The notes: a model not told the origin generated them from the sequence alone. DNA of 60,349 bases from Gemmataceae bacterium (GCA_009692005.1 SHZZ01000017.1:1-60349), one strand, 5' to 3'; shown: positions 46,613 to 60,349, counted from the first letter of the stretch. Translations and numbers: made by a program.

Positions 46613-47422
46613 TTAACGACTCGATGGTTTTTGCTTTTGGGTTAATTTCAAAAAAGCATTAGCGTAACGGTTGCCCAACGCTCGGTACCCCGCCGAATCG
46701 AAATGCACCCCATCCCCTTTATGCTTGAGTCCAGTGGAATCCGCAAACGCGGTCCCTTTCACCTTCCCAGGCAGGTCTTTAAGAACTTTCCCCACCACGG
46801 TTTTCTCTTTGTCCCAGGGCTTGTCTGAAAATTGCCCTAATTGTCCGACGATAAACGGAACTTCTTCACCGAGTTCATTCCGCAAACGCGCGATCAAATC
46901 GTGCAACTTTTCCTCATATTTCCCGGCTAGCATGGGGGTAGAGTCCGATTCGCCCTGATGCCAAAGGATCCCTTTGAACTCGCCTGCCTGCGCCGCGATC
47001 TTTACTCGCTTCACAGCATCGTCCCAGGGGTGCGACTTGGTAGGGGCATAAAACACGCCTGGCTTCCAGGCATCGATAGGGGACCCTCCCACCGCGCAGG
47101 GGACCAGGCCAACCATGATTCCTGGATTGGCCTCACCGATTTTTTCCGCAAACCGTTTTCCCAAACCCACCCCCGCCGCAGGTTTATCAAAATGAAGTGG
47201 GTCAACCGCCGGTTTCCATTCATTGCCCTTGGTTAAAAAAACCACCCGGGGGTGAGGCTGTTTATCCTCTTTTTCAACCACTCCACGACCTGCCATATTC
47301 GATTGGCCCACGAGAAGAAAAAGGTGCACTTTTTCTTTGGGATAAAGCTGCAGCGGTTCCCCTGCTTCCCCGAAAAAGGGGATCAAGAAAAGAAACGCCA
47401 AGGCAAAGAGATTAGTTTTCAA
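46613..47422 (-). CDS. Exported sialate O-acetylesterase-like SGNH esterase
   Basis: A 269-residue SASA-domain (DUF303) protein. Block I is HLFLLVGQSNMAGRG with the nucleophilic Ser, WHQGESDS is the middle block and GDGVHFDSAGYRALG the catalytic Asp/His block. A signal peptide (LFALAFLFLIPFFGEAG) targets it to the periplasm. TTG 47422 is preferred to the TTG at 47452 because a strong AGGGGGG lies five bases before it and the resulting peptide is a clean signal. Such enzymes remove acetyl esters from sugars; the substrate is unknown. Confidence 0.85.
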   Translation of the reverse strand: MKTNLFALAFLFLIPFFGEAGEPLQLYPKEKVHLFLLVGQSNMAGRGVVEKEDKQPHPRVVFLTKGNEWKPAVDPLHFDKPAAGVGLGKRFAEKIGEANPGIMVGLVPCAVGGSPIDAWKPGVFYAPTKSHPWDDAVKRVKIAAQAGEFKGILWHQGESDSTPMLAGKYEEKLHDLIARLRNELGEEVPFIVGQLGQFSDKPWDKEKTVVGKVLKDLPGKVKGTAFADSTGLKHKGDGVHFDSAGYRALGNRYANAFLKLTQKQKPSSR

Positions 47423-47505
47423 GGGAACCCCCCTCCAAAGAAAAAAATGCAAATTGGTCTACTCTGGAAATAAAGGTTAATGAACAGCAGGAGAAGGTTC
47501 AACCC

Positions 47506-48239: not shown

Positions 48240-49901
48240 CTAGGGCTGAATCGTCAGCATTTGCCCTGCTTTGACACCCCGTTTTTGCAATTGGCCTTTG
48301 CCATGCGGCAAAATCACCTCCACATCCACGGATTTTTCCTGACCCAGGCCAAAATGCGCCCGCGCTTCCTGCCCGGAGCAATAGCCAAAGCCGATGGCAA
48401 TTTCCCGTGAACCCAGAAGCGCTGCCGCCTCTCCCATTTTCCCGACTTGATAAAGGTTGATACGGGTTCCAATCCCCATCCGGTTCACACCCTCTTTCCC
48501 TTCCACGCGGATATCCAGCCAATTGCCTCCAGCGGTTTCATTCTGAAGCAAAAGAGACCGGGATTCGATCCACCAATTGGCCAGAAAAATATCTAATTTG
48601 CCATCGCGGTTGAAATCACCGGCTGGGGCTGCCGCCATGTAGATAATCTTCTTTTCCCGCAACATTTTTTCAAAAAAAGGCCCCGATCTTTTGGTCGCCA
48701 AGTCATCGGCCATGGGAAAGTCATTGACTCCCCAGGCATCGTCACGAAACCGGGGTACTCCCTTTTCCACGCCAAGGCCTTTAAAAATTACGGGGCACGG
48801 CTTGCCTTCCTTAAACTTGACAATGCTGACATAAATATCGGGCCAACCGTCGTTGTCGAAATCCTGAATTTCCACATGCGGGGCCTTCATGGCCAGGGGT
48901 TTCAACCCGGCGGCCAAGGTAATCTCCTCAAAACTTGGCGCCCCATCTTTGACTCCCCGGTTCAAATACACCCGCACCGGGGCAGGAGTGGTCCACGGGC
49001 TTTTGAAATGTTGACCGATGACAATGTCTGGCAGAAAATCACGGTTGAGGTCCGCCATGCAGACTCCCGCGGGCGCATCTTCTTTCCCCAACCCCTTCCA
49101 CTGAAACACTTCCCTGGCGCCGGGCGCCTCCTTGAATTTCCCTTTTCCATCGTTGAGCAGCAACCGGTGATCGCCGACACCGCTGGTCAAAAAGATATCA
49201 GGCCAGCCATCCAGGTTGACATCGGCCGCTGCAACGCTCAAACCTCCAAGGCCAGGGGGCAAGCCGACCTGTGCCGCCACATTGACAAAGCGGTGGTTTC
49301 CCAAGTTGCGGTACAAGGCCGCGCCGGTCTTCACTTTTGAAGAATAATACTGTTCGCAAGCGAGCAGGTCGAGAAGGCCATCGCCATCGAAGTCCAGTGC
49401 GGCCAGCCCCCGACCGGAATACGCTGGCGGGCAGGCGCCGCTCTGAGGGGAAACATCGGTGAATTTTCCTTGGCCGTCGTTGCGAAAAAGCAGGCTCGGC
49501 GCTGCCGCCACCCCCTCGCTGGCATGGGCGCAATTTGAAACATAAAGGTCCAACCGGCCAGAATTGTTCAGGTCGAGGAACAAAGCGCCGCTTCCAATTC
49601 CAGAAGTTTGCAAATTCGCCTGGGGGCTGGGAGTGAATTTCCCCCGGTGGTTCAGCAGGAAAACGCTCGGTTTCGACCCAGCATTGTGAAAAGTCCCGAT
49701 GAAAAGATCGGGCCAGCCATCGTTGTCGGCATCGCCCCAGGCGGCGGCGTGGCCGCGCATTCCCCCCGCATGAGGAAAAATCCCGGCCTCGTTGCCAACA
49801 TCCTTGAAGGAGAAAGGGTAATCACCCGCCCTGCTTGAGGGACAATTCAAACTCAGGCCAAGCACAACCCATGCCGCCATGTGGCCAGGGGAAATCGACA
49901 T
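48240..49901 (-). CDS. CRTAC1-family FG-GAP/VCBS repeat protein
   Basis: A 553-residue exported protein (signal peptide near AAWVVLGLSLNCPSSRAG). It carries several calcium-binding FG-GAP repeats: AAWGDADNDGWPDLFIG, FLDLNNSGRLDLYVSN, ALDFDGDGLLDLLACE, AADVNLDGWPDIFLT, DFDNDGWPDIYVS and DFNRDGKLDIFLAN. The C-terminal ~90 residues are an ASPIC/UnbV domain. This arrangement is frequent in planctomycetes; it probably forms a propeller and acts outside the cytoplasm. AGGAG lies nine bases before the ATG. Eleven bases separate it from the propeller gene upstream. Confidence 0.85.
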   Translation of the reverse strand: MSISPGHMAAWVVLGLSLNCPSSRAGDYPFSFKDVGNEAGIFPHAGGMRGHAAAWGDADNDGWPDLFIGTFHNAGSKPSVFLLNHRGKFTPSPQANLQTSGIGSGALFLDLNNSGRLDLYVSNCAHASEGVAAAPSLLFRNDGQGKFTDVSPQSGACPPAYSGRGLAALDFDGDGLLDLLACEQYYSSKVKTGAALYRNLGNHRFVNVAAQVGLPPGLGGLSVAAADVNLDGWPDIFLTSGVGDHRLLLNDGKGKFKEAPGAREVFQWKGLGKEDAPAGVCMADLNRDFLPDIVIGQHFKSPWTTPAPVRVYLNRGVKDGAPSFEEITLAAGLKPLAMKAPHVEIQDFDNDGWPDIYVSIVKFKEGKPCPVIFKGLGVEKGVPRFRDDAWGVNDFPMADDLATKRSGPFFEKMLREKKIIYMAAAPAGDFNRDGKLDIFLANWWIESRSLLLQNETAGGNWLDIRVEGKEGVNRMGIGTRINLYQVGKMGEAAALLGSREIAIGFGYCSGQEARAHFGLGQEKSVDVEVILPHGKGQLQKRGVKAGQMLTIQP

Positions 49902-49912
49902 CAGCAGCGCTC

Positions 49913-51313
49913 CTAGGGGCGTTCACTCTCGGGAATATGGATCACAGTTAAGGCGCAACAATCCCAGGAACGGCCCCCGCGGTTGACATTCCAGGTGATG
50001 TAAAGTTTGTCCCCCTTGGGATCGACGGCAGAGCTGAAAGTGCCTGACAGGGAGGCCCCATACTTGCTCTTGTAAAAGGCATCGAGAAAGGCAATGACTT
50101 TTCTTTTGCGAGTTTGCGTGTCGAATTGCACCACGGGGGAACCGTCCTTAACGCTATCGCCATGCGCCCCAGGAATGTAGTACAGGTACCGGCCGTCTGG
50201 GCTGGCATCGAGCGAGGTGATGTAAGTCGCCGACCCCACAGCCGCCGACCCCAGGTTTTCCACTTGCTCGCTCTTCGTATTGAAGGAAAACAGCTCAGAC
50301 GCCTCTCCCTTGGCCCCTTTGGAAACCGTGTACACGAAGCCTTGCTTGGTTTCCTGAGTGGCAGCGCGCAAGCCAAGTGAAGCGGCAATTTTCACAGGCG
50401 CCGTGTCTTTCTCCGGATCGAATCGCATCAGCGGCCCAACCATGTCCTCCTTGCCCGGGACAAAATAAACCCTTCCCGTGGATTGAGAGAAAATCATGTA
50501 ACGCGACGGGCCATTGGGGCCAGCATAAAGTAGTTTGCGATTCTTCATATCGTAAGCGAAGAAATTAACGACGGTAGAATCGTCCGCCCCGGCGCCAGGC
50601 GCGGTCCCTCCATAAAAAATCAGCCGGTCTGGGTCGAGAACACTGGTGGGAATGCAATGCTTCGGCACCGGACCTTGAACCACCACTTCACTTTTTCCAG
50701 TACGCGGGTCGCAGCGAAGTATCCAATCACCCTTGTAATGGAATTGATCAATCGTCACGCGGGTTGAGCCGCGGTGGGTGGAGCAGTACAGCCAGCCATC
50801 CTTGCCCAAATCCAATCGGCTATGGATCTTGCCAGGCGTGTAATGACCGGTGGGAAGGTTGAGCAATTGGCTGGTTTGCAGTAATTGCCGAAACGATTTC
50901 CTTTCCGGATCGTATTCAAAGACAACTCCTGTGCCAGTGCCATGCGGAAATTCTCCCTTCACGCCTATGGCCAGATGGTCGCCGATGGAGGCATAGTATT
51001 TTCCATTAACCGCCAAGCTATCACCCCAGTTGGACCACGGTTTCCCCTCGTAGTTCTGGCCGGGCAAGTAAAGAAAATCCACGGTTGGCGGCGTCTTGGC
51101 CACGGCAACTTCTTTTCGCAGCGTCGCTGGGGGCGCCAGGAAAGCTTCCGACTTATCTGTCGCATGGGCCTTTCCCCCGGGCAGGCGCGGAGGGAATTCC
51201 AAGGCGGACTTTTTTCCAGACTGGGCAACCGCCAGGCCAACAGAAAAGTGTAAAGCCATGCCAGCCAGGATCAGACACCCGGTCAATCTGTTTGCCACAT
51301 GGAAAAATTGCAT
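49913..51313 (-). CDS. Exported beta-propeller protein, unknown function
   Basis: A 466-residue protein with a hydrophobic export signal (LTGCLILAGMALHFSVGLAVA) and repeated beta-strand units, such as KIHSRLDLGKDGWLYCSTH, YDMKNRKLLYAGPNGPS and TSLDASPDGRYLYYIPG. It resembles a seven-bladed propeller of SMP-30 or lactonase type but lacks clear metal ligands. ATG 51313 is chosen because it starts the signal; 51343 and 51394 are in-frame alternatives. It lies between the redox operon and the CRTAC1 gene, 255 bases downstream of the molybdoenzyme. Confidence 0.68.
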   Translation of the reverse strand: MQFFHVANRLTGCLILAGMALHFSVGLAVAQSGKKSALEFPPRLPGGKAHATDKSEAFLAPPATLRKEVAVAKTPPTVDFLYLPGQNYEGKPWSNWGDSLAVNGKYYASIGDHLAIGVKGEFPHGTGTGVVFEYDPERKSFRQLLQTSQLLNLPTGHYTPGKIHSRLDLGKDGWLYCSTHRGSTRVTIDQFHYKGDWILRCDPRTGKSEVVVQGPVPKHCIPTSVLDPDRLIFYGGTAPGAGADDSTVVNFFAYDMKNRKLLYAGPNGPSRYMIFSQSTGRVYFVPGKEDMVGPLMRFDPEKDTAPVKIAASLGLRAATQETKQGFVYTVSKGAKGEASELFSFNTKSEQVENLGSAAVGSATYITSLDASPDGRYLYYIPGAHGDSVKDGSPVVQFDTQTRKRKVIAFLDAFYKSKYGASLSGTFSSAVDPKGDKLYITWNVNRGGRSWDCCALTVIHIPESERP

Positions 51314-51568
51314 TTTGAGTATCCAAAAAACTCCCTCGGGCATCTCCCTTGGGGTGGGTAAAGTAAATTGGCCAGCACGAAGAATGAAACCCATGGATTT
51401 CAGGGAGGTTTCGTTCCTTGGAAATTGAATACCCGGTCCTCACCTCTTTTGACAATGAAAAATAGCAACAGGAAAGCAAAGAAATATCCAATGCGGGTGT
51501 AAAGAATTTTGAAACAGTGGGCTGTGGCAGGCATTTCGCCCAGTATTGCCGGGCAAACCACATTGAAG

Positions 51569-54223
51569 TTAACCAGAAAAATCCCGCCGCTGGAAAGTCA
51601 TGAACCGCCGGTCTTTCTTGTAAGGAGACTCGCCAATCCGGATCATTTTGGCCTTGGCCAGCTTATAGCGGTAGTTGTTGGTTATTGGATCGACCACCCG
51701 GTGAGCCAGCGCGTTGAACGGATTATCCGGATAAAGGAAATAGGTGAACAACACGCCCGGGGGCACGGCAGCAGTAACCATGGCCACCCCTTCGATCTGC
51801 CCTTTGCCAATGCGGATGTGCCCTTCCCTCTCCAACCAGGAGAATTTGATCTCGTCCGCTTCCACGCGATTGAATCCCCCGGTTTGAATGAGAACATCGT
51901 CGTTAGTCAATCGGACCATGTCCCCGCTCTCCACCCCGCGGGCCTTGGCATCGTCTGGGTGAATCTCAACGAAGTTCCCGGGCCACCGGGCAGCCATGTA
52001 CGGCTTTCTTAGGTCGTCAAACCCGGATTGCCAGGCTTCATTAATTCGACCGCAAGTCACCCACAACTCGCCCTTCAGAGCATCCGGCTTGATGCGGGCG
52101 TAGAAATCGGCAAACAGTTCCCAGGGACTCTTGATCAGGAGCGCCTTCCCCGAATGGGTATTGAACGCCGTCAGCCACTTGGCATGAGTAGTTGGCCCTT
52201 CCAAGTCGGCGGGTTTGAGCGTGCTGTCGTGCAGGCGGACAGTGCCAACCAATTTCCCCTCCTCGATTCGGACGGGGCACTGGATGCCGGTGGTTCCCAT
52301 GGCGCGCAAAGATTCGTGGCCCTTTTTCCCATCCCGATTAGCCTTCCAAACCAGAGGGTAATAGTCGAGAACATCGCCACGGCTAAACCGGGCCGCTTCC
52401 TCAAACACCGCGTTGCCATCGGCCCAATGGTACCCAGAGAACCCCATGGCCTGGGCAAAACGGGCGATGGCACGCCAATCCGGTTCCGCCTCGCCGGGAG
52501 CGTCGTAGAACTTCGGGTAAAGCCGCAAGCGCCTTTCTCCATTGCAACGCGACCCGTCATGTTCTCCCCAGGCGGCGGCGGGAAGGACAATGTCGGCAAG
52601 TTCGGTGTTCAACGGATTGACCGGGTACAAGTCGGAATCCACCAGCACCATGCCACCCGATTCCACCCGCTTGATGAGCGCTGCTACGATGTCATCTTTG
52701 TTTACGCTGGTGGGTTGATGGGGATTTTCCACCGTCAGCTTTCGCACCGTGCGGGCCAATTCCTGGCTGGCAGTCATGGCGCCAGTCCAAGTTGTGCCGA
52801 TCACCCACAGGAAGCGAACCTGGCCCTTTTCCACCCAGCGGTCGAGGTCGAGTTCCACTTTCCTTCGCCCGGGCAGCCGTTCCGGGGATTTTTCCCGTGG
52901 GTACGGGGCAGCGCCCATCCAGCCGCGCTGATGCCCTCCAAGGCGGCTGACCATTCTGCCGGGCCGGTTCCCCGAGCCGCAAAGCAATGCCAGAGATGCC
53001 AGGCTCGCCGTGTTGAGGTAGTTATTGCTCCAGTAATTGCCTTTTTCAAAGAGAAAGGTGGCCTTGGGCTTGGCCTTGCCGGCGCCAGAAAGCAGTTTTG
53101 CCGCCTTCAGGATCTTCTCTTTCGGGATGCCGGTTTCCTTCGCAGCGAAAGCGAGTGAGGCCGGTTCGTGGGCCAGCAGCCACTTTTTGTAGGAGGCGAA
53201 ATCGGCCGCCCCGATATCTCCCCAGGTGGTTCGCCATTGCCAGGGCGTATTGCGGGTGCCGCGCCCGAAGCCGCTGTCGATCTCCCAGGCATTGGCCACC
53301 CATTGCTGGAGGAATTCCTTGTCCTCCCAACCGTTTTCCAAAATGATCCGGCCAAGTGCCATGTGCAACAGGGCATCGGTGCCGGGAATGATTTGCAGGA
53401 AAAGTCCCCCATTGGCCTCGGCGTAAGCCACCCCCATGGTTCGCCGGGGGACGACAAAGACCATCGTGGCCTTCGAGCGCATCATCCATTCCGTAAAGAC
53501 CACGGTTTTTGATTCATAGGGGTCGGTGCCGGAGAGGAATAACACCTCAGCGCTTTTAAAGTCTTCATAGGCGGCGCTGAAGGTGAGAATGCCAGCATCA
53601 TCCATTCCCGCAGTGTCGTTGGACATGGAAGGTTTGTCATGGACGGCAAAGGCCGGCGTCTTGATGGATTCAAATGCCAGCTTGCTGATGGCATAGGTGT
53701 TTTCGAAAAACTCGTAGGAGTAGGTTTTCATGCCCCAGGCTGCTTCGCCGTGTTTCGCAAGCACATGCTTGCTGACCGCAGCCATCACCTCGATGGCGGT
53801 ATCCCAACTGATGCGGGCCAAACGGCCGCCAATCCTCGCCTGGGGGAAGCGCAGCCTGTCTTGTGTGGGGCCGTTGGGGTTGTGGCATTTCAACGCCAGC
53901 GTTCCGCCGCGGATGGAATGGTTCCCACCCGGGTTGACAACTTGGGCCTCAATGTCCGCCACAATAACGCAGTGATGGGGCTTCCCGCCGGACAAAACCG
54001 TGGTGTGCTGATTGGGGCTGACCCATGCGCCTTCAAAGCCGGTGGGAAAATCGGCGCCAAAGGCGTTGTCCTTTGCCCCCGGCCCACCTTCACGGCCCAC
54101 CGGCCAGGTATAAACCTTGAACCCGCAGCCCACTATGCAGTAAGCGCAAACCGTCGCTTGCACTTTCGCGTCTGCCGGGGGCAGGGGCGCGCGGTCATTC
54201 CTTACATAAACCGGCAGTTCCAT
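51569..54223 (-). CDS. Molybdopterin oxidoreductase of the arsenite oxidase / iodate reductase family, large subunit
   Basis: An 884-residue DMSO-reductase-superfamily enzyme. The N-terminal cluster site is CAYCIVGC (Cys26, Cys29, Cys33) with Ser103 (NHSIRGG) where most relatives have a fourth Cys; this 3Fe-4S pattern marks the AioA branch. Arsenite-site positions of AioA compare as follows: His195 kept, Glu203 is Asp203 here (HDKPSMSND), Arg427 and His431 in RLGGHQRG kept. No signal peptide, so it is probably carried out by the Tat signal of the Rieske subunit 97 bases upstream. The family holds arsenite oxidase (AioA), iodate reductase (IdrA) and uncharacterised relatives. The pentaheme partner favours IdrA. 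Classical AioA is about 825 residues, so this one is longer. Confidence 0.88.
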   Translation of the reverse strand: MELPVYVRNDRAPLPPADAKVQATVCAYCIVGCGFKVYTWPVGREGGPGAKDNAFGADFPTGFEGAWVSPNQHTTVLSGGKPHHCVIVADIEAQVVNPGGNHSIRGGTLALKCHNPNGPTQDRLRFPQARIGGRLARISWDTAIEVMAAVSKHVLAKHGEAAWGMKTYSYEFFENTYAISKLAFESIKTPAFAVHDKPSMSNDTAGMDDAGILTFSAAYEDFKSAEVLFLSGTDPYESKTVVFTEWMMRSKATMVFVVPRRTMGVAYAEANGGLFLQIIPGTDALLHMALGRIILENGWEDKEFLQQWVANAWEIDSGFGRGTRNTPWQWRTTWGDIGAADFASYKKWLLAHEPASLAFAAKETGIPKEKILKAAKLLSGAGKAKPKATFLFEKGNYWSNNYLNTASLASLALLCGSGNRPGRMVSRLGGHQRGWMGAAPYPREKSPERLPGRRKVELDLDRWVEKGQVRFLWVIGTTWTGAMTASQELARTVRKLTVENPHQPTSVNKDDIVAALIKRVESGGMVLVDSDLYPVNPLNTELADIVLPAAAWGEHDGSRCNGERRLRLYPKFYDAPGEAEPDWRAIARFAQAMGFSGYHWADGNAVFEEAARFSRGDVLDYYPLVWKANRDGKKGHESLRAMGTTGIQCPVRIEEGKLVGTVRLHDSTLKPADLEGPTTHAKWLTAFNTHSGKALLIKSPWELFADFYARIKPDALKGELWVTCGRINEAWQSGFDDLRKPYMAARWPGNFVEIHPDDAKARGVESGDMVRLTNDDVLIQTGGFNRVEADEIKFSWLEREGHIRIGKGQIEGVAMVTAAVPPGVLFTYFLYPDNPFNALAHRVVDPITNNYRYKLAKAKMIRIGESPYKKDRRFMTFQRRDFSG

Positions 54224-54320: not shown

Positions 54321-54884
54321 TCATCCGGGCTTGGCCTTGTTGTCGCCAAACCCAAAAAGCAGCCCAAAAATTCCCACCGCCAAAATGTTCTCTCCTTCCA
54401 CTTCCAACACCACCTGGGGCAACCCTTGTGTGGCATGGCCGCTGACAACCATTCCATGGCGGGTCAGGTCAAAAGTGGTCAGGTGGCCAGGACACGGCCC
54501 GGCCATTCCCACCTCTGGATAAAACTTCTTTGACGGTATTTCCCACCCCATATGTGGACATAATGAACTAAAGGCCACGATGTCCTTCTTCGGCCCGACA
54601 CCACCTCCCCCTTCTTGGCCAAGCTTCACCAGAACCATGCGGCAATTGGAATGGTCCCAGGGATAGCGAAACTCCACCGCTTCCCCTGTTTTTACTTTGC
54701 CCAGTTCCGCTACTTTTTGCCGCGGATACTTCGCCAACTGCCCTTGCGCCCACCCCAGGCCGGGGAGAGTCACCGACATCATGGTGGCGCCGGAGGCAAA
54801 CAGGAAAGCACGGCGGTCAACAGGATTGCAGGGGCCAGGGCAGCCCGGCTCGGATTCCTCGAGTGGCACGCGAAAGGAACTCAT
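54321..54884 (-). CDS. Rieske iron-sulfur subunit of the AioB/IdrB type
   Basis: A 187-residue Rieske protein. DRRAFLFASGATMM with Arg24-Arg25 is a Tat signal. The cluster ligands are Cys109-Pro-His111 and Cys131-Pro-Gly-His134. The extra Cys pair that forms a disulfide in bc1-type Rieske proteins is replaced by Trp114 and Gly133, as in some AioB proteins. It passes electrons between the molybdenum subunit and a c-type cytochrome in the periplasm. Its ATG overlaps the stop of the pentaheme gene (54881-54884), and the molybdoenzyme follows. All three are therefore one operon. Confidence 0.92.
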   Translation of the reverse strand: MSSFRVPLEESEPGCPGPCNPVDRRAFLFASGATMMSVTLPGLGWAQGQLAKYPRQKVAELGKVKTGEAVEFRYPWDHSNCRMVLVKLGQEGGGGVGPKKDIVAFSSLCPHMGWEIPSKKFYPEVGMAGPCPGHLTTFDLTRHGMVVSGHATQGLPQVVLEVEGENILAVGIFGLLFGFGDNKAKPG

Positions 54885-57451
54885 GGCCCCACCTTCCCGC
54901 TATAGCGGCCGTAGGGTGGCAAGGGCGGCGGTTTATCTGCCAGCGGGTCGCCGCTCAAACTTTCTAAAAAAGCTTGCAAGTCCAGTTTCTCCTCTTTACT
55001 TAGCCCCATTCTCTTAAGAATGGGACTTTTGTTTTGATTCCTGCCTCCACCCTGGTCGTAAAATTCAATCACCTCAGACAGGGTTTTGAAAATGCCATTA
55101 TGCATGTAGGGCGGCGTGTGTTTCAATTCCCGCAGGCTGGCTGTGCGAAACTTTCCGGTGTCCTCGCTTCGCTTGGTTACATAATAAAGGCCAAAATCGT
55201 CGCGGGCCTGATCATAAACCGAGCGAGGAACTCCATTGGATGCCTGCTCGAAACGGAAGGTGATTTGTTTGTTCGGGCTGTTGAGGAAATCCGGGCTGGC
55301 AGGCACCCCGAGATTATGAAAACGGTCGTCGGAAAGCAACGCACCATCGTGGCATTGAATACAGTTGGCTTTGCCGGTAAAGATCCGGTACCCCCGCTTG
55401 GCCGACCCGCTAATGGCCTGGGCATCGCCCCGAAGGTAAGCATCGAAGGGAACATTTTTACTATTAAGCGTTCGCTGAAAAGCGGCAACGGCGCGGAGGG
55501 CGTTGGCCCAGGTGGGGAATTCTTCGCCAAAGACGGCTTTGAACCGAGCCCGGTATTCCGGCGCCTGGGCCAGCCTTTCTTCCGCCAGATCCGGGTCGAT
55601 GTTTCCCGCCACGGCGCCACTCCAGGCGCCATCATTTTGCTCCTCGATGCTTCCCCGGGAGCCATCCCAATTGTATTTCTCGAAATAAGCGACATTGAAA
55701 AGGGCGCTGGAATTGCGCCAATGACTGGCGCCGGCGCCTCCCATGGAGATGGCCGTCCGCGCCGTATATCCCGTGTGCGCCGGGTGGCAGGTATTGCAAC
55801 TCGTGCCCCCTTCCGCCGATAGCCGGGGCTCGAAAAACAACAGCCGCCCGAGTTCCACCTTTTCCTTACTCCAAGGGTTGTCCCTGGGCTCTGGCGGTGG
55901 AGGCAGAACGGTAATCGGACGGGGTTTTCTAAAAGCCAGGGCGGGGGAGTTATTAATTTCCTTCTGTTTCACTTCCGGGGCTGGAGGCAGCACAGAATAA
56001 TCCGGCAGCTCCGGTGTGGTGACTTGGATTGCTTCCGAAGCCAGCGACTTCAAGAAACCAAGCAACTGCTTTTTCTCGACAACCGTCAGGTTCAATCTTT
56101 TCAATCCGGCCCGTTGCCCCGGTCCTCCCCCCTGGTCGTAAAAGTCGATGACCTCGTCGAGAGTGTTGAAGCGTCCATCGTGCATGTAGGGCGCGGTGCG
56201 GGCTGCCTCCAGGAGGCTGGGGGTGCGGAAACTCCCGCGTTTAGTTTCCTGGAAGTTCACCACGAAGCGACCGGGATCGCTGGATAGGTTGCGATAGTTC
56301 GGGGTCCCCAGTCCGCGGAAAAACCGGCGAAAGGTCGTGTGCCGTTCCGGGTCCTCCAGCAACTCCGGCCTCGTGGTTAGGCCCAGGTCATGAAACTGGT
56401 GATCGCTAAAAAGCCCCGCAGGATGGCAACGCGCGCAATCCGCTTTGCCATCGAAGAGTTTCTTCCCCGCCTGCGCCTCGACGGACAGCGCCTTGCCATT
56501 CCCTTTTACGAATTGGTCGAAGGGAGAGGATCCCGAATGGAGGGATCCGCTGTAGGCCGCAAGGGATTTCAAAATCGTCCCAAAATCAGGTTCAGTTCCA
56601 AAGGCAGCCTGGAAGAGTTCCGCATATTCAGGCGCCTGTTTCATGCGTTCAATGAGCAACCGCCCGTCGGCAGCCATGAAGAAGGGCTCCGTGAGGTGAT
56701 CGCGGACAACGGTGGCCAGGTCCGCACTGGCCAGGCGCCCGTCCCAATACGCCGTCTTCAATTGCGAAATATTGAGCAATGTGGGTGTATTGCGGAATAG
56801 CGCCGTGCCGGGGTAGCCGATGCTTACAGCCATTCCATCGCTGAAAGCTTTTTCGGGCTGATGACAGGAAGAGCAACTGAGGGCGTTGCAGGCGGACAAC
56901 CGGTTATCGAAAAAAAGCGCTTTGCCCAGGGCAATCTGAAGGTCCGTCGGCGGCTTCAACAAAGGCGATAGGGGCGGAGCCATGGTCTCGGCCGGCCGGG
57001 TGCGGTTGATCTTTTCCCCGGGTTTATCCACACCCTTGGGGTTTTCGTTCCCTAGCTGGGCCAGATATTCCACCAGCAACTTTATGTCTTCACTTGAGAG
57101 CGTCTTGGCAAACCGTTTTGGCATGACGCCTTTCTCGAACCCGCCCGGCGCCACCATGGCGTCGGGGTCCAGAATCGATTCGCGAATGTATTCCTTGGCG
57201 GACATTTTGGGTTTACGCCCGGCAGCGGCCACCCCGAGTTTAGAAAGGTTGGGCCCGACTTCACCATCCGCGCCGGGCACGCCGGGAATGACATGGCAGT
57301 TCCCGCATCCGCCCCGGTTAAGGATGGCAACGACCGCGTTTGGCGCCGCGGGGGCTTGTCCACCATTCGCTTCTCCGCGAAGGCCGACAAGCGCCGCCAA
57401 TAGGAACAGGTCCAAGATGAGCCTGCCATGTATGTCCATGCCCTTTGGCAT
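54881..57451 (-). CDS. Pentaheme protein: cytochrome c domain fused to two MauG/CcP-type di-heme modules
   Basis: An 856-residue exported protein (hydrophobic segment LILDLFLLAALVGL). Residues ~38-140 are a mono-heme cytochrome c with CGNCH 49-53. Module A (~165-475) has CSSCH 193-197, CARCH 339-343 and PYMHDGRFNTLDEVIDFYDQ 421-440. Module B (~525-835) has CNTCH 552-556, CIQCH 697-701 and PYMHNGIFKTLSEVIEFYDQ 781-800. A and B are internal repeats of a bacterial di-heme peroxidase, joined by a Pro-rich linker (480-525). In iodate reducers two separate di-heme proteins (IdrP1, IdrP2) accompany IdrAB; here they may be one chain. Reaction is inference: electron transfer or peroxide removal. ATG 57451 follows gtgaggg; ATG 57439 is an alternative. 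Confidence 0.9.
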   Translation of the reverse strand: MPKGMDIHGRLILDLFLLAALVGLRGEANGGQAPAAPNAVVAILNRGGCGNCHVIPGVPGADGEVGPNLSKLGVAAAGRKPKMSAKEYIRESILDPDAMVAPGGFEKGVMPKRFAKTLSSEDIKLLVEYLAQLGNENPKGVDKPGEKINRTRPAETMAPPLSPLLKPPTDLQIALGKALFFDNRLSACNALSCSSCHQPEKAFSDGMAVSIGYPGTALFRNTPTLLNISQLKTAYWDGRLASADLATVVRDHLTEPFFMAADGRLLIERMKQAPEYAELFQAAFGTEPDFGTILKSLAAYSGSLHSGSSPFDQFVKGNGKALSVEAQAGKKLFDGKADCARCHPAGLFSDHQFHDLGLTTRPELLEDPERHTTFRRFFRGLGTPNYRNLSSDPGRFVVNFQETKRGSFRTPSLLEAARTAPYMHDGRFNTLDEVIDFYDQGGGPGQRAGLKRLNLTVVEKKQLLGFLKSLASEAIQVTTPELPDYSVLPPAPEVKQKEINNSPALAFRKPRPITVLPPPPEPRDNPWSKEKVELGRLLFFEPRLSAEGGTSCNTCHPAHTGYTARTAISMGGAGASHWRNSSALFNVAYFEKYNWDGSRGSIEEQNDGAWSGAVAGNIDPDLAEERLAQAPEYRARFKAVFGEEFPTWANALRAVAAFQRTLNSKNVPFDAYLRGDAQAISGSAKRGYRIFTGKANCIQCHDGALLSDDRFHNLGVPASPDFLNSPNKQITFRFEQASNGVPRSVYDQARDDFGLYYVTKRSEDTGKFRTASLRELKHTPPYMHNGIFKTLSEVIEFYDQGGGRNQNKSPILKRMGLSKEEKLDLQAFLESLSGDPLADKPPPLPPYGRYSGKVGP

Positions 57452-58033: not shown

Positions 58034-58813
58034 TCAAGGCGCGCACGGAGTTGATGGTGTTGCACTTCCGTCACGATTCCCGTTCGGGAGCCGTGCGGGA
58101 CCGACCTCGACGCCCAGCAAGCCCATGACCGCTTTCGCCGCCGCCATGTAGCCGAAACCGGCGAGGAGTTCGATGAGTTGCACCGACCGGAACTGCTCGG
58201 CCCGCGCCGCCGCCAGCATGTACTCGTCCACGCCCCACGGGATGTCGAACCGGGCGTCCTGGGCGTGCAAGCAGTTCTGATAGGCCATCAGGTCGGCGTT
58301 CGTGAACTTGATGCTGGCCAGCGTGGGGATGCGATCCGCCGCTACCGCGAGGAACTCGGGCATCGGGAACTGCACGCCGGTCAGGACGGGAATGTCGTAG
58401 AAGTAGAACGGCACTGCCGGGGCCGTCCCCGCGATGTCGGCACAGCAGGCCACCAGCGCGTCGAGCGACTTCGGCTTGAAGTAGCTAGGGGCAAGTGCGG
58501 CGATGGCGTCGGCCCGAAGTTCCTGAGCCTGAGCCGCCAGCGTGCGGGCGTTGGCGAGGCAGTTCGAGCCGACGTGAACGACCAACCGCAACCCCGTGCC
58601 TCGGACGACTTCACTCCACCGGCGGGCCAGGGTGAGGCGCTCTTCAACGGTGAGGGAGTGGCTCTCACCCGTGCTACCGCCGATGAACACGGTCTTCACG
58701 CCGTTGCCGTGTAGGTGTTCGGCCTGCCGCTCGACGCCGGCAAGGTTCAGTTGGCCGTCGGGTTGGAAGGGTGTGTGGGTGGCGGCGACGAGGCCGTGCA
58801 GCTTGATCGTCAT
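58034..58813 (-). pseudogene. nanA: N-acetylneuraminate lyase-like (DapA/NanA family), C-terminally truncated
   Basis: From ATG 58813 the protein matches the class I aldolase family that cleaves sialic acid to pyruvate and N-acetylmannosamine: VFIGGSTGESHSLTVEER with the phosphate-binding loop, PFYFYDIPVLTG with the catalytic Tyr, and ASIKFTNADL with the Schiff-base Lys. It follows the family up to LGVEVGPARLPNGN (about 58090) and then diverges, ending after 259 residues, where relatives have about 300. The final helices are therefore lost. Its start overlaps the MFS gene (ATGA). G+C-rich codons contrast with the rest of the window. Active-site residues survive, but folding is doubtful. Confidence 0.75.
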
Positions 58814-59550
58814 CGAGGTTGCTCCTGGGAAGCGAGTTCGGGGCGAAGCCGGATGAGCAGCACCAACACGACCGAGAGGATGGCGAGTCCGGCGAAGCCG
58901 CCGAAGATCACGTTGAGCGGCACCTGCTTGCCTCGCAGCACGCCGAAGCCCCAATCGGCCAGCCCGCCGACGCTGATGCTGAAAAAGTTCATGATGCCGT
59001 AGCCGGTCGCCCGCAACTGCGGGAGCACGATCTGCGACAGGATGGGCATGTTGTTGCAGTCGAAGAAGCCCCAGCCGAGGCCGACCAAGAAGCCGATGGC
59101 GACGGCCAGCGTGCCGGCGTTGCCCACGCCGAAGATCGCCACCACGATCAGACTCATGCCAACAGCGCTGACGTAGATGCGGCCCCGGTTGTTCGTTCGC
59201 ACCCACCGATCCGCCAGCCAGCCGCCGGCGACGACCCCGAGGATGGCGGCGACCTGCCAGTAGAGCGTGGCCGCCACCCCTGCCTTGCCCTGACCGATGT
59301 TGAACTGCTTCTGGAGGATGGCCGGCATCCAGTCCCGCACCACCCACCCGGCCATCGCCGGCAGGGTGAAGTACAAGATCAGCAGGATGAAGGAAAAGCT
59401 GGTCAACAACTCACTGCCTGCACCGACAGGGGAAATCCGTGGAGCCGCCAGCCGCTCTTCCGATTTCGGTGCGTCCCGCAGGAAGATCACCAGCGGGACG
59501 GCGTACAGCATCCCCACGACGCCGCAGGCGGTGAAGGCGATCCGCCCGCC
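58810..59550 (-). pseudogene. MFS transporter, N-terminal part deleted
   Basis: The frame encodes the C-terminal portion of an MFS carrier: a helix with RIAFTACGVVGMLYAVPLVI, the linker RDAPKSEERL, and about six further helices (for example WVVRDWMPAILQKQFNIGQG and GFLVGLGWGFFDCNNMP). The first three to five helices are missing: the coding sequence joins directly to the kelch gene at about 59542-59550. In the sialic-acid clusters of planctomycetes this position holds a sialic-acid transporter. No intact start codon precedes it; translation would have to begin in the kelch frame. Confidence 0.78.
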
Positions 59551-60341
59551 GAGGAGGTAGAAGCCCGAGGCGTCGGACGGGGCGGGTGACGGCGCGGCCA
59601 CGATGGGATGGGGCAAGTCGGCGACCCGCTTCCGGCCCTTGTCGGAGTCGTAGCGGTAGGTGTCCTTGAGGTAACGGCGTTCCACCTTCTCCCCTTTGCC
59701 GACGACGAGATCGACGACGCCCACCAGCCATAATGCCCCGTCGAAGCCTGCCGCAACCGCCCGTCGCCGGGGCAATCGTCAATGCCCTCCCACTTCGGTT
59801 CTTTGGCCGACAGGTCGAGCCGCCATGCCGCCTTCGACATGTTCTCCGAGTCCGGCTTCTCGTGACCGCCGGCGACATACAGCATGTCACCGACCAGCGC
59901 CCCACAGCCGTTGGCGACCGGCTTCGGCAGAGGCGGGAGTTTCGTGGTCACGAGTTTGCCGTCTTTCCAGTCCAGCCGGAAGGCGTCGGCGTAGTGCCGC
60001 TCCGCATCGCTCCCGCCCACGCACACGACCCCGCCGCCGTGGGTGACGCTGACGCCGTGGGTGACGCTGACGCCGTACCCGAGCGGGCGGGGCAGCTTAC
60101 CGCCGACGGCCCATTTGCCGCCCGGCTTCTCCAACACGCATACCGCGTCGGACCACACCTTCTTGCCGCCGTCCCACGGCTTTTTGTCGGGGAAGTTGGC
60201 ACCGTCGGCCACGACCAACACGCCGGCGAACCCCTCCTTGTCGGGCAGCGGTGTCAGGCGCTCCCACTCACCGGCGATGGCGAACGGGGCACCAGGGAGG
60301 ATCAGGAAGCAGAACATCAACCGCCATCGAAACGTCCCCAT
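59551..60341 (-). pseudogene. Kelch-propeller protein (N-acetylneuraminate epimerase NanM-like), frameshifted and 3'-truncated
   Basis: From ATG 60341: signal peptide (MFCFLILPGAPFAIAG), then kelch strands such as LPDKEGFAGVLVVADG and GALVGDMLYVAGGHE. At about 59755-59775 the frame breaks after EGIDDCPGDG; the sense continues in another frame as RAVAAGFDGALWLVG, then RYLKDTYRYDSDKG and SDASGFYLLGG, where the gene is cut and joined to the MFS. NanM-type proteins interconvert sialic-acid anomers. It has an 18-bp tandem duplication (60039-60074). Frameshift plus deletion make it a clear pseudogene. Confidence 0.78.
60039..60074. repeat. 18-bp tandem duplication inside the kelch pseudogene
   Basis: gtgggtgacgctgacgcc occurs twice in a row (60039-60056, 60057-60074), adding six residues (GVSVTH repeated) in frame. 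It looks like a replication slippage event. Confidence 0.85.
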
Positions 60342-60349
60342 ACGCTGCC

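Follow-up and report, generated by a model that had tools for sequence, protein, structure and literature searches.

The 60,349-nucleotide stretch of DNA analyzed here (the window; Gemmataceae bacterium, GCA_009692005.1 SHZZ01000017.1:1-60349) encodes a protein in which a cytochrome c appears to be joined to two di-heme modules of the cytochrome c peroxidase (CCP)/MauG type, next to genes for a Rieske and a molybdenum subunit. The locus raises the question of whether the two modules correspond to IdrP1 and IdrP2, the di-heme partners of IdrAB, and what such partners do when they are held in one chain with a cytochrome. The function of IdrP1 and IdrP2 has been stated to be unclear (PMC11445184), and removal of H2O2 is the usual assumption.

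Architecture of the fusion gene and its operon

The fusion gene lies on the minus strand, which the first-pass annotation of the window had not given, and runs from an ATG at 57451 to a stop at 54881 as one stop-free frame of 856 amino acids. The translation contains five CxxCH motifs, at exactly the residues reported in that annotation (49, 193, 339, 552, and 697), as well as the repeated sequences it had listed for the two modules (PYMHDGRF and PYMHNGIF, and EVIxFYDQGGG). Pfam placed Cytochrom_C at residues 48-133 (E 5e-16) and CCP_MauG in two stretches (E 2e-85); with these E-values the domains are not chance matches, and a mono-heme head followed by two di-heme modules in a single chain was confirmed.

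All parts of the chain are encoded on the minus strand. A signal-like hydrophobic N-terminal segment (residues 1-37; 57341..57451; LILDLFLLAALVGL) precedes the mono-heme, class-I cytochrome c head (residues 38-140; 57032..57340; CxxCH at 49; Cytochrom_C). Linker 1 (residues 141-170; 56942..57031) leads to module A, a di-heme CCP/MauG module of the IdrP2 type (residues 171-485; 55997..56941; CxxCH at 193 and 339), and the proline-rich linker 2 (residues 486-522; 55886..55996) leads to module B, of the IdrP1 type (residues 523-840; 54932..55885; CxxCH at 552 and 697). Neither a start codon nor a signal-like stretch was found in the linker between the modules, and the genome contains a single copy of the gene.

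The head and both modules were 72-79% identical to those of an orthologue, with dN of 0.14-0.20 and dS near or beyond saturation (dN 0.20 and dS near saturation for the head alone), and all three are under purifying selection. The N-terminal segment evolves fast (32% identity), and linkers 1 and 2 were 37 and 38% identical, respectively. The earlier proposal that the five hemes are held in a fixed arrangement was not supported by these values, nor by the full-length AF2 model, whose pLDDT of 51.5 is too poor for the heme arrangement to be read. Because both linkers are poorly conserved while the domains are conserved, the linkers more likely act as a flexible tether than as part of a rigid array.

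The stop codon of the fusion gene overlaps by 4 bp (ATGA) the start of an idrB-type gene for a Rieske subunit (54321..54884, minus strand), whose product has a Tat motif (DRRAFLF) and the motif CXHX19CX2H and scored 107.8 against TIGR02694 (cutoff 95.65). An idrA-type gene for a molybdenum subunit follows (51569..54223, minus strand); its product has the 3Fe-4S motif CX2CX3CX69S and an N-terminus that is not signal-like. The order fusion gene, idrB, idrA bears out the operon with Rieske and molybdenum subunits that had been proposed. A fourth cysteine, as for a 4Fe-4S cluster, was considered for IdrA and dropped; the 3Fe-4S serine is conserved, and the nearby cysteine is not in an equivalent place. 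No separate c-type cytochrome gene was seen adjoining the operon, and promoter and terminator scans of the locus gave no excess over shuffled sequences.

The IdrABP1P2 clusters of Pseudomonas sp. SCT, Denitromonas sp. IR-12, and Azoarcus sp. DN11 (PMC8692401, PMC10149662) have the same subunits in the same order. The window shares with them an IdrA of the same clade, a Rieske subunit with a Tat motif, the 3Fe-4S motif and two di-heme partners, but differs in that IdrP2 and IdrP1 form one chain behind a mono-heme cytochrome. The spacing of the IdrA and IdrB motifs is shifted by one residue each, with CX69S instead of the CX70S and CXHX19 instead of the X18 of DN11. Judged by the conserved gene order, the IdrA clade and the presence of both di-heme partners, the locus is an idr (iodate-reductase type) operon in which the two partner genes are fused.

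The modules were assigned with IdrA-type loci taken from GTDB genomes, from the class, family, and phylum of the window and from plasmids. The order idrP2-idrP1-B-A occurred in more than 30 loci from many phyla, including nearly all intact loci, and in the sampled loci the first di-heme gene was usually the best match to module A and the second to module B. Since the published order in M. iodofontis is idrP2, P1, B, A (PMC10989891), module A is of the IdrP2 type and module B of the IdrP1 type.

The surroundings of the operon were also inspected. Downstream are genes for a 493-amino-acid protein that matched neither Pfam nor NCBIfam (49913-51394) and for an FG-GAP/ASPIC-UnbV protein (48240-49901), and a sialic-acid-type esterase (SASA) is encoded at 46613-47452. 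Positions 58034-60349, with NanM-kelch, MFS, and DHDPS-family genes, have a G+C content of 67% compared to 54% for positions 1-44000, and may be either acquired DNA or a join made in assembly where the contig ends.

Active sites of the IdrP2- and IdrP1-type modules

The AF2 model of module A (pLDDT 93) has the di-heme CCP fold by VIA structure comparison, aligning with 4aan and 2vhd over 293 residues (Z 33.4, rmsd 2.1-2.2). Mixed-valence or reduced (open) CCP forms scored best and the oxidised 1eb7 scored lower (Z 26.6). The classical bacterial di-heme CCPs (1nml, 2vhd, and MacA, 4aan) were thus the structures closest to module A (Z 33), but the window modules lack their E-heme Met ligand, distal His71, and Glu114. 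Module A also matched E. coli YhjA (9qdt, Z 30.6), a CCP with extra N-terminal sequence that carries heme; YhjA has one di-heme module and the window protein has two. A further match, the gamma subunit of hydrazine synthase (5c2v, Z 17.9), is a Planctomycetota CCP fold recruited to non-peroxidase chemistry, although its sequence is distant and it belongs to a different complex.

The residues on which peroxide cleavage depends differed from those of classical CCPs. Tyr438 of module A occupies the Met275/Tyr294 position, and the catalytic Glu, the Gln, and the distal Pro are replaced by Phe, Val, and His, respectively. Module B has Tyr798 at the ligand position and retains the Gln; both its Glu and its Pro are replaced by Ala. 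In all scorable IdrP1 and IdrP2 modules, Tyr replaces the Met ligand of the electron-transfer (E) heme, as in MbnH. In a first sample, the Glu114-equivalent was missing from all 69 modules (Ala, Ser, or Gly in IdrP1; Phe, Ile, Leu, Thr, or Met in IdrP2) and present in all 23 outgroup CCP, MauG, and MbnH proteins; the distal Pro was missing from the same 69 modules and present in 21 of the 23 outgroup proteins. A second sample of 20 loci, found by searching the family around a Rhodobacteraceae genome and the class around Marinobacter, had neither residue in any of its 40 modules, so that Glu and Pro were lost in 109/109 sampled modules, none of them assignable by name to the experimentally validated strains SCT, IR-12, and DN11. 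The Gln was kept in IdrP1 and lost in 29 of 32 IdrP2 modules of the first sample and in all 20 of the second. The conserved loss of the Glu across IdrP1 and IdrP2 was not reported in the open-access literature searched.

Other positions in and around these sites varied or were conserved in their own right. The inter-heme Trp, kept in both window modules, was His in 11 of the 32 IdrP2 modules of the first sample and in 14 of the 20 of the second, many of them proteobacterial (loci L056, L058-L060, L062, L063, L068, L069, L072, L073, L133, and most of L163-L182). At the loop position of CCP His71, most IdrP1 and IdrP2 modules have a conserved Tyr (SRGYPGT); this Tyr, found in nearly all other modules, is replaced by Gly in window module B and its close relatives. 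Conserved acids, mostly D or E, lie near the Glu position (at -3 and +4 in IdrP2 and at +4 in IdrP1) and might substitute for the lost Glu.

These residues bear on the published hypothesis that IdrP1 (module B here) and IdrP2 (module A) act as cytochrome c peroxidases and clear H2O2 arising from iodate reduction (PMC8692401, PMC10746228), for which the head would be the donor. The CCP_MauG fold, the inter-heme Trp of the window modules, and the Gln of IdrP1 are what such enzymes should have, and the first-pass annotation had implied the same role. However, Glu or Gln variants of bacterial CCP are inactive (PMC10094543) and the E277Q variant of BthA is impaired (PMC6405878), so that with the Glu, the Pro, and, in nearly all IdrP2, the Gln missing, reduction of H2O2 by the known mechanism is unlikely. 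The loss of Glu and Pro together with Tyr in place of the E-heme Met argues against the peroxidase hypothesis, which we consider improbable for the family and doubtful for the window protein, which has neither the catalytic Glu nor the distal Pro in either module.

The Tyr ligand is shared with MauG (3l4m) and MbnH (6e1c), as are the di-heme fold, to which the match was good, and the inter-heme Trp. All scorable modules have Tyr at the position of MauG Tyr294, and IdrP1 and IdrP2 could accordingly be maturases whose 6c heme is Tyr-ligated and which pass through a bis-Fe(IV)-type state to modify IdrA, IdrB, or a small substrate oxidatively. This appears a poor prospect. Each module scored below the curated cutoffs for MauG (TIGR03791, 443.85; module A 215.5, module B 206.5, whole protein 411 bits) and MbnH (TIGR04039, 362.85; module A 194.3 and module B 214.5 bits). 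The modules also lack the distal Pro and the equivalent of Glu113, which is reported to be required to stabilise the bis-Fe(IV) state in MauG, and no mau or mbn context or candidate for a modified residue was recognised. The whole protein reached 402 bits against TIGR04039, above the cutoff; this is the sum of two modules, and membership in MbnH was rejected.

Ancestry of the operon and of the fusion

The idrA-type and idrB-type proteins pass the cutoffs of the arsenite oxidase models TIGR02693 and TIGR02694, as would be expected if the operon encoded a variant of arsenite oxidase (AioAB) with the fused cytochrome as electron acceptor. The IdrA tree speaks against this: the window protein clustered with Idr-type proteins (42 besides itself), which a 100* branch separates from AioA, in a tree whose AioA outgroup is small (two rows) and in which no row is identifiable by name as an experimentally validated IdrA. 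Identity of the window IdrA was about 46-62% with homologues from beyond its family and about 29% with plasmid AioA. Reyes-Umana et al. argued that arsenite oxidases have no di-heme genes in their neighborhoods and noted deep-branching Planctomycetaceae (PMC8692401), and no arsenic gene was recognised among the neighboring genes examined at the window. An AioAB variant is therefore very improbable. Read as an Idr-type enzyme, the window IdrAB would have iodate as its substrate, by homology.

The correspondence of the modules to IdrP2 and IdrP1 was borne out in a tree of 92 modules. The IdrP2 set formed one clade (SH-aLRT 100) with module A inside it and the IdrP1 set another (SH-aLRT 81; 96 in a reduced tree) with module B inside it, and the two clades together were apart from 23 outgroup CCP/MauG proteins. 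Modules A and B were 39% identical to each other; the median identity was 45.7% between module A and IdrP2 and 49.9% between module B and IdrP1. An origin of A and B in a recent internal duplication, independent of the IdrP1/IdrP2 pair, to which the motifs PYMH[DN]G and EVIxFYDQGGG common to both modules and their identity might point, and under which A and B would be closest to each other, can be dismissed, since constraining them together cost 101 log units (AU test, p-AU 1e-8 under the model used) and the clades track gene position in the 30+ loci.

Two further genera of the family show the same domain order, one in full and the other up to the point where a contig ends. In the second genus (G019; loci L035/L043), an 890-amino-acid frame encodes a five-heme chain 72% identical to the window protein over residues 27-855; the fusion is thus not an assembly artefact, because an independent assembly contains it. 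In the third genus (G134; locus L130), the contig ends inside the fusion gene, the frame is open to the edge, and the residues before module B (ARKPRPLAPLPAPPHPKDNP) match the fused linker, with no start codon or signal peptide. Of 95 genomes of the family, 3 contain idrA, and all three are therefore consistent with the fusion. Among 294 genomes of the phylum, the head used by itself as the query had no strong match beyond the window.

A Myxococcota genome encodes a 733-amino-acid, four-heme fusion of IdrP2 and IdrP1 with no head (L052 7195-9393). The module tree places it away from the window clade, and it apparently arose independently. Two such fusions support the view that IdrP2 and IdrP1 act as a pair, as the first-pass annotation had argued from the window alone, and physical pairing is supported by the co-occurrence of IdrA, IdrP1, and IdrP2 in the same active iodate-reductase gel bands (PMC10149662). 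The Idr system is already known; neither an idr fusion nor the five-heme architecture is described in the open-access literature searched, and the architecture appears to be new to that extent.

Several loci departed from the usual arrangement in other ways. In another planctomycete family (G069), L042 6091-8182 is a decayed remnant in which module A is still joined to module B; the C-terminal half of A and most of B are followed by the C-terminal 243 residues of IdrA, and IdrB and the remainder of IdrA are gone. At L051 2-6355 and L070 2-7099, an IdrP2-type module forms the C-terminus of a giant multicopper-oxidase protein (Cu-oxidase_2/_3) of more than 2,100 amino acids, open at the locus edge, and the neighboring IdrP1 has long extensions. 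IdrA-type genes with no recognisable IdrP1 or IdrP2 in the fetched stretch were L037 5350-8109 (G302), where IdrB is missing too, L064 (a short stretch), and L071.

The cytochrome head and a proposed role for the fused partners

The head matched 7zs0-7zs2 and a c555 construct in the PDB and is a class-I cytochrome c, with Met110 the probable axial ligand of its heme. In Azonexus and Thiothrix plasmids the gene immediately following idrA encodes a free small c-type cytochrome, a c-type cytochrome gene lies near idr in Pseudomonas SCT (PMC10149662), and in one genome (G501; L128 7117-8778 and 8729-10300) IdrP2 and IdrP1 each have their own N-terminal mono-heme domain and three CxxCH motifs. This recurrence of a cytochrome near the idr genes or fused to their products suggests the role of the head, and lineages seem to differ in how a cytochrome is brought to the partners. 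No cytochrome gene lies near idr in DN11, so the linkage is not obligatory.

We propose, with a probability of about 0.6, that the fusion protein is a periplasmic redox partner of IdrAB, either a non-canonical electron relay or a reductase of an iodine intermediate. The head would stand in for the free c-type cytochrome that adjoins other idr clusters, accepting electrons on the quinol/bc1 side and passing them to the four MauG/CCP-like hemes. Canonical cleavage of H2O2 by modules A and B is unlikely; more probably they hand electrons on to IdrAB or, beside it, reduce a reactive iodine intermediate (HIO/IO2-). Fusion would secure stoichiometry and keep the donor tethered on flexible linkers, not as a rigid wire. 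At slightly less than even odds, the proposal may extend to IdrP1 and IdrP2 as a whole, which would then be a distinct CCP/MauG branch that has lost the peroxide-cleaving residues and serves in relay or in iodine-intermediate reduction beside IdrAB, the window protein being the same machine fused to its own donor.

The natural single chain fixes the partners and their stoichiometry, gives one expressible target, and names a class-I cytochrome c as the likely donor of IdrP1 and IdrP2. With Glu and Pro lost from all IdrP modules sampled, an assumption of iodine-cycle models becomes a testable question, that of H2O2 turnover.
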